This document shows positions 3,301 through 57,839 of a stretch of DNA of 64,000 nucleotides, piece after piece. Position numbers and translations under genes: made by a program. The stretch's first letter is position 1; each line of letters starts with the position of its first letter. Under the pieces are notes generated by a model. It did no database searches. It was not told the DNA's origin and worked only from the letters and a program-made list of their open reading frames with translations. The stretch lies in contig NZ_BDCU01000040.1 in the NCBI RefSeq assembly GCF_001618425.1, forward strand, positions 124,001 to 188,000. Direction: 5' to 3'. Source of the stretch: Nocardia fusca NBRC 14340. GTDB lineage: Bacteria > Actinomycetota > Actinomycetes > Mycobacteriales > Mycobacteriaceae.

Positions 3301-4269
3301 TCAGACTTCGAGTATCTCGTCGATCGGGCGCCGCGGGGTATCGGCCAGCGGGGCGGAGCCGCGGGAACTCCATCCGACCCGCACCATGGACTGGGGGTAC
3401 GCGCAGTCGTGGAGTAGGCCGGTCCGGATCTCCTGCCGTGCGTCCGGTACGCCGAGAGGTTCGGTCTGCACGCTGGTGGCCAGGCCCAGTTCGGTCGCGG
3501 TCAGCAGAAGCGCGCTCGTCGCCTCCCCCGCCCGCAGCTGGGCCCGCCGGTCGTCGCGGGTGGTGCCGACGACGAGCCATTTCGCGGCGTCCGGCTGGTT
3601 CGCCGGATCGAGCAGGGCGGGGTCGGCGAATGTGCGCACCGGGATCTCGCCGGCCGGGCGCGCCGCGGGAGCGTTCCGGGACGGCACACCGTCGGTGAAC
3701 CGGTCACGTCCACTCCACCGGGCGATCTCTTCCTGGTACAGCCGGTCGGTGGCATGCGCGGCGACCGCGTGCTGCATGGGGACCGCGAGACAGGGCAGCA
3801 GGGTGTCGGGAACCTGCCGGACGGCGGCGCCGCGGGCCGATACCTGCGCGGCCAGCGACCGCAGATAGCGGGCGGGGATCGGCTTGGGCAGGTAGTGGCG
3901 GCGGTCGGTGCGGCGCAGCAGGATGGCCGCGGCCAGTTCGATATCTGCGTCGGTGGGCGGCCGGCGCGTGGTCTGGATCGTGGCGAGGTGGTCGGGATCG
4001 TGGGGGTCCGGGCAGTAGTCCACGGTGGAAGCCCAGCCGAGCGCTGCCAGCGCGGCGCGCATATGGTGCAGCACGGCACCACAGCTGACGACGAGCGAGC
4101 GCAGCGAGGGATCGGTGACGATCAACTGCCGGCCGGTATCGGCGAAGAGTCGGATACCGGAGTCGGCGGACCGCCAGAGCCAGGGTTGGGTGTTGTGCAC
4201 GGACGGTGCTCGGACTGCCAGGCCGAGGGCGAGATCGGTGGCCTCACGATCCGGGATCGTGGCGGACAT
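3301..4269 (-). CDS. Acg-type nitroreductase-fold flavoprotein
   Basis: 322-residue protein of the Acg/Rv2032 group, double-length nitroreductase-fold proteins that bind FMN but are thought to store flavin rather than reduce nitro compounds. Supporting motifs are APSVHNTQPW near residue 20, LRRTDRRHY near 145, and GEATSALLLTATELGLATS near 245. In mycobacteria the group is tied to dormancy and redox stress. I looked for a DosR box upstream and saw none. Its 5' end diverges from the DoxX-repeat gene across a 486-bp spacer. Confidence 0.85.
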   Translation of the reverse strand: MSATIPDREATDLALGLAVRAPSVHNTQPWLWRSADSGIRLFADTGRQLIVTDPSLRSLVVSCGAVLHHMRAALAALGWASTVDYCPDPHDPDHLATIQTTRRPPTDADIELAAAILLRRTDRRHYLPKPIPARYLRSLAAQVSARGAAVRQVPDTLLPCLAVPMQHAVAAHATDRLYQEEIARWSGRDRFTDGVPSRNAPAARPAGEIPVRTFADPALLDPANQPDAAKWLVVGTTRDDRRAQLRAGEATSALLLTATELGLATSVQTEPLGVPDARQEIRTGLLHDCAYPQSMVRVGWSSRGSAPLADTPRRPIDEILEV

Positions 4270-4652: not shown

Positions 4653-4678
4653 TGTTTCCCGGCCCGGAAGCCGGGTAG
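4653..4678 (+). promoter_or_regulatory. SigF/SigB-type promoter for the DoxX-repeat gene
   Basis: TGTTT, then exactly 15 bp, then GGGTAG, 77 bp before the ATG at 4756. The form matches general-stress sigma promoters of actinobacteria (GTTT-N15-GGGTA). Confidence 0.55.
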
Positions 4679-4755
4679 ATCGGCAGTACTCTGGCCTACT
4701 ACCCCTGGTGACCAGCTGTGACAGATGCGAAACACCGAAGAAAGGGATGCACATC

Positions 4756-5853
4756 ATGCTGCTACGCCGGTTCGCCCGCCCCCTGCTGGCGAGTGCGTTC
4801 GTCGTCAACGGAGTCGAAACACTGATGCATCCGGAATCACGGGTGAAGGAAGCGTCGACTCTGGTCCACAAGGGGAAGGAATCGCTGCCGTCCGATATCG
4901 CGGGCAACCTGCCCGCCGACCCCAGCACCCTGGTGCGGGTGACCGCGGCCGTACAGATCGCCGGAGGCGCCCTGCTGGCACTGGGCAAGGCACCACGCCC
5001 GGCGGCGCTGGCGCTGGCGGCGACCGTGGTTCCGGCGACGGTGACCGAGCAGAACTTCTGGGCCGAGAACGACCCCGAGCGCCGCGCGGCCAAACGGACG
5101 GCATTCCTCAAGGACGTGAGCCTGCTCGGGGGCCTGATGATCGCGGCATCGGATACCGCGGGTAAACCCTCGCTGGGCTGGCGGGGACGCCGCGCCGCCC
5201 GCCGGGCGGCCGCCACCGTCGGCGGTGCGCTGCCGGTGGGTTCGTCGGCCCGTAACGGCACGGGCGAGGCCGTCCGGCAGCAACTGCACCAGGCCACCGA
5301 CCGGGGGCGGGACCTGGTGGGTTCCGCGGCCGACCGTGGAGCGGAGCTGGCCGAGATCGCCCAGCAGCGGGGTCCGGTGTGGGCGGACACCGCCAAGAAG
5401 CGGGGCGCCGACTGGGCCGATATCGCGAAGCATCGCAGTGCCGAGCTGGCCGAAACCGCCCAGACCCGTGGTCCCGAATGGGCCGCGGTCGCGAAGAGCC
5501 GGGCCGCCGAACTCGCCGACTACACCAAACACCGCGGCGGCGAACTCGCCGAGACGGCGCAGCACCGGGGGCCGGAGTGGGCGGAAGCGGCCAAGAACCG
5601 CGCCGCCGAACTCGCCGACTACACCAAACACCGCGGCAGCGAACTCGCCGAAACAGCCCAGCACCGCGGCCCCGAATGGGCCGAAGCGGCCAAGAACCGC
5701 GCCGCCGAACTCGCCGACTACACCAAACACCGCAGTGGCGAACTCGGCGCCTCGGCCAAGGCGCAGCGCGCCCAGCTGGCCAAGGCGAAGGCGAAGGCCG
5801 ACAAAGCCAAGGCGAAGGCCAAGAAGAAGGCCGCGAAATCCAAATTCCGCTGA
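4756..5853 (+). CDS. DoxX-family membrane protein with fourteen 11-residue helical repeats and a Lys/Ala tail
   Basis: 365 residues in three parts. Residues 1-150 are a DoxX-like membrane domain (RFARPLLASAFVVNGVETL; later VQIAGGALLALG and ALALAATVVPATV). Positions 5272-5733 encode fourteen uninterrupted 11-residue units ending in Arg, such as GPEWAEAAKNR, AAELADYTKHR and GSELAETAQHR. The last 25 residues are almost pure Lys/Ala. An 11-residue period makes a slightly right-handed amphipathic helix, as in LEA proteins and apolipoproteins, so the tail may lie on membranes; the basic end could touch nucleic acid or acidic lipid. ATG 4756 is chosen because AAAGGG is 9 nt upstream; two earlier ATGs fit worse. 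It is monocistronic with a stress-type promoter. Function is unknown. Confidence 0.85.
   Translation: MLLRRFARPLLASAFVVNGVETLMHPESRVKEASTLVHKGKESLPSDIAGNLPADPSTLVRVTAAVQIAGGALLALGKAPRPAALALAATVVPATVTEQNFWAENDPERRAAKRTAFLKDVSLLGGLMIAASDTAGKPSLGWRGRRAARRAAATVGGALPVGSSARNGTGEAVRQQLHQATDRGRDLVGSAADRGAELAEIAQQRGPVWADTAKKRGADWADIAKHRSAELAETAQTRGPEWAAVAKSRAAELADYTKHRGGELAETAQHRGPEWAEAAKNRAAELADYTKHRGSELAETAQHRGPEWAEAAKNRAAELADYTKHRSGELGASAKAQRAQLAKAKAKADKAKAKAKKKAAKSKFR
5470..5748 (+). repeat. 99-bp near-identical tandem repeats inside the DoxX gene
   Basis: Copies start at 5470, 5569 and 5668 (the last partial). Each encodes three 11-residue units. Near-identity at DNA level points to recent duplication, so copy number may vary between strains. 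Confidence 0.9.
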
Positions 5854-5867
5854 GTACGCGGCGGATA

Positions 5868-5903
5868 CGACGATGCCCGGGCCGTGCGGTCCGGGCATCG
5901 TCG
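5868..5903. terminator. Bidirectional hairpin terminator
   Basis: Perfect 13-bp stem (CGACGATGCCCGG with its complement) and a 10-nt loop, between the convergent ends of the DoxX-repeat gene and the photolyase. No U-tract, as is common in actinobacteria. Confidence 0.75.
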
Positions 5904-5905
5904 CG

Positions 5906-7222
5906 TCACATCCCGGGAAACTCCAGGATCGGCGCCGGATAGTCCGTGTCGAGCCGCCACGGCCGGTGGATCGCCCTGCCTTCGATATCGGCGAGTTCGG
6001 GGACCCAGCGGCGCACGTAGTCGCCGTGCGGGTCGTAGCGGTCGGCCTGGCGCAGCGGATTGAGTACCCGGTTCGGGCGGGTGTCGTTTCCGGTCCCGGC
6101 GACCCATTGCCAGTTGAGCTGATTGTTCGCCAGGTCCGCGTCGACCAGCCAGTACAGGAAGTGCCGCGCGCCGGCCCGCCAGTCCACCCGCAGCGATTTG
6201 GCGAGAAAGCTCGCGGTGATCAGGCGGGCGCGATTGTGCATCCAGCCCTGTGCGCGCAATTGCCGCATCCCGGCGTCCACGATCGGGATACCGGTGTGTC
6301 CCTCGCGCCAGGCTGCGAGCGCCTGCTCGTCTTCGCGCCAGCGGATATCCCGCGCGCGATAGTCGGCCCATGCCGCGCCGGGCCGGGCGGCCAGGACCTG
6401 GTGGTGGAAGTCCCGCCAGGCCACCTGCCGGACGAACGCGGCGGCGCCCTCGGTGGAATCACCGGCGCGGCGAACCACCTCCCCCGGCGAGAGACAGCCG
6501 AAATGTAGGTACGGGGACAGCCGTGAGGTGGTGTCGGCGGCCAGATCGTCGCCGCCGGACGCGTAGCCGTCGAGGCTGCGGGAAAGCCAGTCCCGCAGGA
6601 TTTTCCGGCCCGTGGTCTCGCCGCCGACCGACAGTTCGGGCGAGCGTTCGCCCGCTCCGAGCTCGCCCGGCTCCGGGAGCGACCCGGCGGCGATCTCCGG
6701 CAGCTCGAGGCGGCGCGGCGCGCGCAGCGGCGCCCGGTGCCGGTCGCTGGTCCAGCGCCGCAGATAGGGCGTGAACACGGCGAAGTGATCATTGCCGGCG
6801 GGGACCAGATCTCCCGGCGGCACGACGGTCAGCGAGGCCGTGTGGACCCGCAGCCCACGACCGTCGCGGGCCAGGCGATCCCGCAGCCGCCGCTCCCGGA
6901 GGCGGCTGTAGGCGCTGACATCGGCGGCGATATGGACGACCGGCGCGCCCGCCGTCTCCGCCACCCGCGCCACCTCTTCGGCGACGTCTCCGGCGCGGAT
7001 GACGAGCCGGCCGCCGAGCGCACGGAGTTCGTCGTCGAGTTCGCGCAGGGCGGCCGCCAGGAAATGCGCGCGATTGGGTGGGCAGGAACGACCGGACACG
7101 ATGGCTTCGTCGAGAACGAAAAGCGGGACCACCGTCGCGGCCTCCCGGTGCGCCGCCGTGAGCACCGGGTTGTCCCGCACCCGCAGGTCGCGGGTGAACA
7201 GGGCGACCGCGGCTGCGGTCAC
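5906..7222 (-). CDS. phr: Deoxyribodipyrimidine photolyase
   Basis: 438-residue light-dependent DNA repair enzyme that splits UV-induced cyclobutane pyrimidine dimers using FAD. The N-terminal antenna domain begins AAVALFTRDLRVRDNP. The C-terminal FAD domain carries the family signatures TGIPIVDAGMRQL, GWMHNRARL, and NNQLNWQWVAGTGND (residues about 325-385). The GTG start overlaps the VOC stop as GTGA, so the two genes form a unit. The unit's stress-type promoter at 7626-7651 fits known SigB/SigF control of photolyase in other actinobacteria. It resembles class I CPD photolyases more than (6-4) enzymes. Confidence 0.95.
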   Translation of the reverse strand: MTAAAVALFTRDLRVRDNPVLTAAHREAATVVPLFVLDEAIVSGRSCPPNRAHFLAAALRELDDELRALGGRLVIRAGDVAEEVARVAETAGAPVVHIAADVSAYSRLRERRLRDRLARDGRGLRVHTASLTVVPPGDLVPAGNDHFAVFTPYLRRWTSDRHRAPLRAPRRLELPEIAAGSLPEPGELGAGERSPELSVGGETTGRKILRDWLSRSLDGYASGGDDLAADTTSRLSPYLHFGCLSPGEVVRRAGDSTEGAAAFVRQVAWRDFHHQVLAARPGAAWADYRARDIRWREDEQALAAWREGHTGIPIVDAGMRQLRAQGWMHNRARLITASFLAKSLRVDWRAGARHFLYWLVDADLANNQLNWQWVAGTGNDTRPNRVLNPLRQADRYDPHGDYVRRWVPELADIEGRAIHRPWRLDTDYPAPILEFPGM

Positions 7223-57527: not shown

Positions 57528-57839
57528 ATGCGCGCCACCGACCCACAGCGTCCCTTTCCGGAACCGCAACCGGCGCCGGATCCCGAGCCCACGCCCCCAC
57601 TGCCCGCTCCCCCGCCCGAACCGCGCCCCCGGGAGCCGCAACCGCCGGTTCCCGGCCCCGCACCGGAACCGCAACCGCCCGTCCCGGGCCCGCCGCCGGA
57701 GCCACAGCCGCCCGTCCCGGGCCCGTCGCCGGAGCCGCGGCCGGTACCACCGGAACCCCTACCGGGCCCGGCACCGGATCGCCCACCCCTCCCGGACCCC
57801 GGCCACCCGGTCCCGCCGCCCCCTGTTCCGGCCGGGTGA
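57528..57839 (+). CDS. Proline-rich repeat protein
   Basis: 103 residues, about half Pro, with tandem EPQPPVPGP units (three near-copies, residues about 38-66). No signal peptide or membrane helix is visible, so it is probably a cytoplasmic extended or polyproline II protein. ACAGGAGCACG precedes the ATG, and codon third positions fit a true gene, but low complexity makes function impossible to tell. It shares the region with other stress-type genes. Confidence 0.6.
   Translation: MRATDPQRPFPEPQPAPDPEPTPPLPAPPPEPRPREPQPPVPGPAPEPQPPVPGPPPEPQPPVPGPSPEPRPVPPEPLPGPAPDRPPLPDPGHPVPPPPVPAG

Follow-up and report, generated by a model that had tools for sequence, protein, structure and literature searches.

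An open reading frame in the window, which is the whole stretch of 64,000 nucleotides of Nocardia fusca NBRC 14340 DNA that was analysed, encodes a DoxX membrane domain followed by a long array of 11-residue units, and thereby raises the question of what such a tail may do at the membrane. The initial annotation of this locus proposed that the tail is a surface-lying amphipathic helix of the apolipoprotein type and that the protein either protects the membrane or links it to the nucleoid. The observation on which this proposal was based is confirmed, and the interpretation is partly supported.

Gene and domain architecture

The open reading frame starts with ATG at 4756 and ends with a stop codon at 5851-5853, according to the window sequence and the list of its open reading frames. 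The features of the locus are as follows.

4756..5853, plus strand: whole gene, encoding the DoxX domain, the 11-residue repeats and the Lys/Ala end (365 amino acid residues)
4756..5220, plus strand: DoxX membrane domain and basic linker, residues 1-155 (Pfam PF07681, structure model)
5272..5733, plus strand: 14 gapless 11-residue units, residues 173-326 (lag identity)
5734..5850, plus strand: degenerate last unit and Lys/Ala end, residues 327-365 (composition)
4654..4677, plus strand: SigF-type promoter box GTTT-N15-GGGTA (GTTT at 4654-4657, GGGTA at 4673-4677)
4740..4746, plus strand: probable ribosome-binding site GAAAGGG (identified by eye; favours the start at 4756)

The sequence GAGGAAAGGG is present at a similar distance from the ATG in several of the upstream regions of the orthologues. 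A 353-residue open frame lies opposite the gene on the minus strand (window 4837-5898), and is probably a by-product of the high G+C content and the repeat. The upstream neighbour is a divergent nitroreductase-family gene (window 3301-4269, minus strand) and the downstream neighbour is a convergent DNA photolyase gene (window 5906-7171, minus strand), both of which are plausible stress genes. Elsewhere in the window, a short Pro/Glu-rich reading frame with 33- and 45-base repeats is seen by eye at 57528-57839.

The possibility that 4756-5853 is a chance open reading frame is ruled out, because synonymous changes are above expectation and the relatives keep the frame. The codon-based expectation is about 2.9 nonsynonymous changes per synonymous change. 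The numbers of synonymous and nonsynonymous differences from the loci L074, L075 and L088 are 17/0, 19/1 and 25/0 for the DoxX part and 27/9, 31/17 and 38/26 for the tail, respectively. Within the repeat, the two newest 33-residue copies differ at 8 synonymous bases and 1 nonsynonymous base, and an older pair (5404-5502 versus 5503-5601) at 15 synonymous and 19 nonsynonymous bases.

The DoxX family has four membrane helices. The Pfam DoxX model (PF07681) matches residues 6-97 of the window protein with 40.7 bits (cut-off 23.6), and is matched at E 0.1 or better in all of the 18 aligned orthologues. The structure model of residues 1-155 (mean pLDDT 80) contains helices at 2-24, 27-43, 46-49, 56-76, 80-98, 107-132 and 140-154, of which those at 2-24, 56-76, 80-98 and 107-132 are long, one (27-43) is an extra helix in the first loop and another (140-154) follows the domain. 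The four hydrophobic stretches of the DoxX part are all weak (maxima 1.05-1.65), and MSMEG_3255, the apparent orthologue in M. smegmatis, is given two membrane helices, not four, in a published table (PMC11898655). The predicted inner segments contain 10 Lys/Arg and 1 Asp/Glu, and the outer loops contain 4 Lys/Arg and 7 Asp/Glu. These loop charges suggest that both ends of the protein are cytoplasmic. This signal becomes less clear when four more Lys/Arg at 109-114, which lie in the fourth helix of the model just before the hydrophobic stretch, are counted as outer, giving 8 Lys/Arg and 8 Asp/Glu on that side.

The model of the whole protein is poor (pLDDT 48.6), and the comparison with solved folds was therefore restricted to the DoxX part. 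The nearest solved fold is that of NACHO/TMEM35A, which we take to be a membrane assembly factor of a DoxX-like kind (Foldseek probability 0.98, TM 0.49/0.55, E 0.29). In the VIA comparison, this match has a Z of 12.9, which is at the level of about 13 that helical bundles may reach through their common arrangement, with an rmsd of 2.7 over 121 residues and 13% identity, and the next structural match is CD9 with a Z of 10.2. A sequence search of solved structures found nothing with an E of 1 or lower. The likeness in fold between DoxX and NACHO/TMEM35A is suggestive only.

The genome of N. fusca encodes eight DoxX proteins above the cut-off. The other seven are open frames of 155-288 residues, in which no such repeats are seen by eye. 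One of them (L092, contig C17, 288 residues) is a longer DoxX protein, the locus of which also contains a frame for an LppZ-like lipoprotein. Presumably, L092 is the orthologue of Rv3005c, judging from gene order and the LppZ likeness. The window protein shares the DoxX domain and stress regulation with the DoxX protein of the mycobacterial SodA-SseA membrane oxidoreductase complex, and could be imagined as a redox partner of this kind. This explanation is highly improbable in a genome with eight DoxX proteins, and the window protein is probably another paralogue, because L092 looks like the orthologue of Rv3005c.

The fusion of DoxX to 14 consecutive 11-residue units at 5272-5733, as initially annotated, is borne out by the open reading frame, the Pfam match, the Arg residue that ends every unit (14/14) and the lag identity. 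When residues 156-365 are compared with themselves at a lag of 11, 74 of 199 positions are identical, against a maximum of 37 in 10,000 shuffles. The units had been described as exact repeats, which is correct for their length, but not for their sequence: three unit types follow one another in a 33-residue order (lag-33 identity 0.54), and the pattern is weak in the first unit (VRQQLHQATDR). The Lys/Ala end comprises residues 327-365, with 12 Lys and 13 Ala among these 39 residues.

Distribution of the tail and the SigF-type box

When the DoxX part is used as a query, matches are found in 144 of 148 genomes of the genus, in 283 of 301 genomes of the family and in 28 of its 31 genera. The DoxX part of the window protein is close to those of N. 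rhamnosiphila and N. testacea. The tails were read at 91 loci, some of which represent one gene fetched twice (e.g. L001 and L004). At least 60 residues follow the DoxX domain at 89 of them, the exceptions being L036, which runs off its contig, and L090, which is broken. The lag-11 identity exceeds that of the shuffles by more than 4 standard deviations in 82 of these 89 tails, of which L054 (z 4.1) and L065 (z 4.7) are borderline. In 83 tails, identity is highest at lag 11, 22 or 33. The complete tails of L069, L070, L071, L072 and L089 have no clear 11-residue period (z 0.4-1.8); L024 and L027 likewise do not pass, but are truncated by the ends of their contigs. The orthologue of Mycolicibacterium at L089 shows a tail peak at lag 29, not 11. 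With one or two loci per genus, a period-11 tail is present in 24 of the 27 other genera; it is absent from g13, g28 and g31, and is present at one of the two loci of g3. The architecture is therefore widespread in the family, not one-off, and the repeat, the absence of which from homologues would have spoken against the initial annotation, is conserved in the DoxX homologues.

In 103 proteins, 1320 units were counted, with 0-24 units per protein, and the spacing between neighbours is exactly 11 residues in 1100 of 1218 cases. In six diverged tails with a different unit sequence, 11 is the best of the periods 7-15 in all six. A variable length at constant register is what a single helix with an uninterrupted face would be expected to show.

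When the repeat itself (residues 184-326) is used as a query, matches are obtained in 24 of 40 relatives. Of these, 23 are Nocardia, and the match adjoins a DoxX match in 22 of the 23. In the remaining Nocardia genome (G015, 78% complete), no DoxX part is found, either on the contig with the repeat match or elsewhere. In the genome of N. fusca itself, the repeat query matches only the window gene at E 0.001. The 24th match, a weak one (E 3e-6), is located in a genome of another family (G432, C102:113633-113965), away from the DoxX place of that genome.

The order-wide search with DoxX gives matches in 109 of 150 genomes. The 11-residue repeat looks like an expansion typical of the family of Nocardia, because 10 of the 11 best-scoring loci outside this family have only a short end, with 19-51 residues after position 150 that are mostly rich in Lys, Arg and Ala. 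L113, a locus outside the family, encodes a DoxX protein with a short and different 11-residue array (SGLAHGAAHxA) behind a one-mismatch SigF box, possibly of independent origin. A single origin of the tail is not shown by the DoxX tree, which requires 5 changes of the tail label; the rows of this tree are 97 distinct ones of 115 proteins, with repeats, short rows and L087 left out.

The stress-type promoter of the initial annotation is supported by the box at 4654-4677, which is an exact SigF-type box. The consensus of SigF in M. smegmatis is GTTT-N(14-19)-GGGTA (PMC4694148). When up to 300 bases upstream of the 91 loci are searched for the exact box with a spacer of 13-18, it is found in 36 regions, whereas 200 shuffles give 0.23 on average and never more than 2, and the other strand gives 0. 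These 36 loci belong mainly to one Nocardia clade and are not independent, although their spacers differ. A one-mismatch box is present at 34 of the 55 remaining loci (mean 1.4 and maximum 5 in 60 dinucleotide-preserving shuffles), so that an exact or one-mismatch box is located upstream of 70 of the 91 loci. Some of the one-mismatch sites are far upstream, at -182 to -187. No box, even with one mismatch, is found at 21 of these 91 loci, for one of which (L046) the data contain only 24 upstream bases. Of 24 further loci, 13 belong to the family and 11 lie outside it; a box with at most one mismatch is present at 10 of the former and 1 of the latter, and L102, L108 and L111 have no box even with one mismatch. 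At the Mycobacterium-type loci with a box, GTTT starts at -34 or -35, which would place the transcription start on or close to the start codon. A sigma-70 promoter scan of the window, which does not cover SigF, gave no promoter, and a search of the open-licence literature found no paper on a SigF box in Nocardia.

The regulation of this gene type can be compared with that of MSMEG_3255, which is apparently its orthologue by synteny and box, not by its own sequence. MSMEG_3255 is listed as a SigF-regulon gene of the DoxX subfamily, with log2 changes of -3.16 in the exponential phase and -5.18 in the stationary phase upon deletion of sigF, and with a box GTTT-N15-GGGAA 36 bp upstream of its start; the gene is flagged there as one that an earlier study had found too (PMC4694148). 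The RDD-family gene MSMEG_3254 falls in the stationary phase without sigF and has the same box 923 bp upstream (PMC4694148), and a separate listing gives MSMEG_3255 and MSMEG_3254 as a confirmed operon (PMC5741613). MSMEG_3255 resembles the family of the window gene in its DoxX identity, in the SigF box just upstream and in the RDD-family gene that follows it in the operon, as at L057, where a gene for an RDD protein (E 1.8e-23) follows DoxX in the same order. An RDD gene of this kind is present at 6 of the 12 loci of genus g29, which share a clade of the tree with the named Mycolicibacterium locus L089. These 13 Mycobacterium-type loci (12 of g29 and L089) encode 5-13 units, and a Lys-rich end in 3 cases. 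SigF dependence is published for MSMEG_3255 only, and its tail is not discussed in the available text of the SigF-regulon account (PMC4694148).

In log-phase cells subjected to spray-dry cycles, MSMEG_3255 is differentially expressed with a ratio of 1.3 and a probability of 100% (Appendix Table 5 of PMC5445863). The sign label of this table is ambiguous, and MSMEG_3255 is probably up, because carotenoid genes, which are up in cycled cells according to the text, are named in the same comparison (PMC5445863).

The initial annotation knew of no described example, and the architecture is indeed apparently undescribed, as no published account was found in a search limited to the open-licence literature; a likely member, MSMEG_3255, is however a listed SigF-regulon gene (PMC4694148).

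Geometry of the repeat and its possible partners

A helical wheel of 836 distinct units from the homologues places the nonpolar positions 4, 8 and 5 on one face. Lys or Arg occupies position 11 in 82% of these units, at -70 degrees, and position 9 in 66%, at +94 degrees; acidic residues account for 2% or less at both basic flanks, and are located at positions 3, 6 and 10, at 135-168 degrees, opposite the nonpolar face. A nonpolar face with basic flanks and acids opposite is the class A arrangement. The repeat of the window protein and its homologues show the class A 11/3 pattern, with an 11-residue period, basic flanks and an acidic polar centre, so that the pattern fits the amphipathic, surface-lying helix of the apolipoprotein or synuclein type that had been proposed. 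When the positions are permuted, the nonpolar moment is ordinary, since 15% of the layouts reach it, and the basic/acidic separation is modestly unlikely, since it is as strong in 3.4% of the layouts with a comparable moment. Residues 184-326 are weakly amphipathic, with a mean hydrophobicity of 0.07 and a moment of 0.24, and Pro occupies position 2 in 4 of the 14 units of the window protein and in 141 of the 836 units. The continuous helix expected by the initial annotation is nearly obtained in the low-confidence model of the whole protein, which is helical at 170-269 and 273-364. At E 0.1 or better, Pfam Apolipoprotein (PF01442) is matched by 2 of the 18 orthologues (best E 7e-4), which do not include the window protein itself, and YtxH by 8 of 18.

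With hydrophobicity and moment this low, the partner of the face could be a second helix rather than a lipid surface. The main rival explanation, which we regard as rather unlikely, is that the tail is a hendecad coiled coil with a core of Ala, Gly and Leu, which dimerizes and serves as a scaffold for partners such as envelope-growth proteins, with a reach of about 23 nm into the cytoplasm (154 residues at 0.15 nm). The 3-1-3-4 spacing of positions 1 (Gly), 4, 5 and 8 corresponds to a hendecad core a, d, e, h, and a weak similarity to the DivIVA/Wag31 model is detected in 5 of 18 members (best E 0.001). Rv2458, to which MSMEG_3255 is mapped in a published table, is presumably a different enzyme, MmuM. 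This mapping is made in Table 1 of a study in which MSMEG_3255 is among the proteins exclusive to the cross-linked complexes of FhaA in M. smegmatis, a list that is described as one of putative direct or indirect interactors (PMC11898655). Against this rival, basic residues border the narrow face on both sides and acids are nearly absent there, which leaves no usual inter-helix salt bridges, and the number of units varies up to 24, so that the length is not kept. A lipid surface is favoured over a hendecad coiled coil because the basic flanks are present on both sides.

Nocardia stores triacylglycerol. The lipid surface might accordingly be the monolayer of a triacylglycerol droplet, with which the tail would associate in a phasin- or perilipin-like manner during lipid storage, while DoxX remains in the plasma membrane. 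The phasin model TIGR01841, which has a cut-off of 30.2 bits, gives exactly this score for the tail by itself but a lower one, 27.2 bits, for the whole protein, and matches 5 of 18 members at E 0.01 or better. The 33-residue order of 3 x 11 is shared with perilipin-4 (PMC5889406). Evidence from droplet proteomics was not found, as DoxX is not mentioned in the main text of PMC3902926, and a droplet and the plasma membrane are indistinguishable by sequence. A droplet tether is quite unlikely.

The membrane-nucleoid link of the initial annotation would require DNA binding by the Lys/Ala end, of the kind seen in MLDS, a droplet protein of Rhodococcus, so that the chromosome is tethered to the membrane under stress. 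MLDS is presumably related to TadA and HBHA of actinobacteria; none of these is known to be a DoxX protein or to have a gapless 11-residue array. MLDS combines an apolipoprotein motif with a Lys-rich C-terminus that binds DNA, and raises survival under stress (PMC5504291); it is likened to the window protein by description, not by sequence. The 39-residue end of the window protein and the short basic end directly after DoxX in most of the 11 loci outside the family are consistent with such a link. Among 115 proteins, which include repeated fetches of the same gene, 71 carry a net charge of at least +4 over their last 35 residues, but only 37 carry at least +8, and only 27 have 8 Lys or more among these 35 residues; several Nocardia groups end with few Lys. 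As a general feature, the link is not upheld and is very unlikely, because a strongly Lys-rich end is present in only part of the family. An MLDS-like link to DNA could hold in the clade of the window protein, by analogy.

Perilipin-4 and alpha-synuclein share with the window protein insertion-free 11-residue units and weak hydrophobicity, and perilipin-4 also the 33-residue order (PMC5889406). They differ in that they are eukaryotic, have no DoxX anchor and have a helix bundle after the repeats, not before them; the likeness is one of repeat pattern. LEA group 3 proteins are soluble proteins with 11-residue helical repeats and stress expression. No LEA model is among the Pfam matches of the window protein to E 10 or of the 18 orthologues to E 0.1, in a search whose filters may drop weak matches.

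Proposed role and its significance

The explanation that we consider best, at an about even chance of being correct, is that the protein is induced by stress and that its membrane-anchored tail lies as an amphipathic 3-11 helix against the inner side of the plasma membrane, where it may bind lipid, as judged from its sequence. As a general-stress membrane protein, it would be made in the stationary phase and under stress by SigF-type transcription. The DoxX helices, four in the model, would fix it in the plasma membrane so that both termini are cytoplasmic. The 154-residue repeat would form one long 11/3 amphipathic helix that runs along the inner leaflet: the Leu/Trp-Ala-Gly face would sit among the headgroups, Arg and Lys would occupy the interface, and Glu and Asp would point toward the cytosol. 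Affinity is proposed to arise from length and tethering, because each unit would bind weakly. Where lipid packing is perturbed, the long helix may cover or stiffen the membrane on its cytoplasmic side, and would thus act like the repeats of perilipin-4, synuclein or apolipoproteins, but tethered by DoxX. More tentatively, and with a clearly smaller chance of being correct, the protein may be a SigF-controlled, DoxX-anchored bacterial counterpart of perilipin-4, which coats the inner leaflet or ties lipid droplets to the membrane upon drying or growth arrest.

These results provide a testable structure and role for a gene, the DoxX part of which is present in 283 of the 301 sampled genomes of the family. 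Perilipins, synuclein and apolipoproteins are the main known sources of this type of helix. Should the tail indeed coat membranes, it would represent a bacterial and permanently anchored version of this helix, and would give a direct lead on the protection of membranes in drying and dormancy in an important bacterial group.
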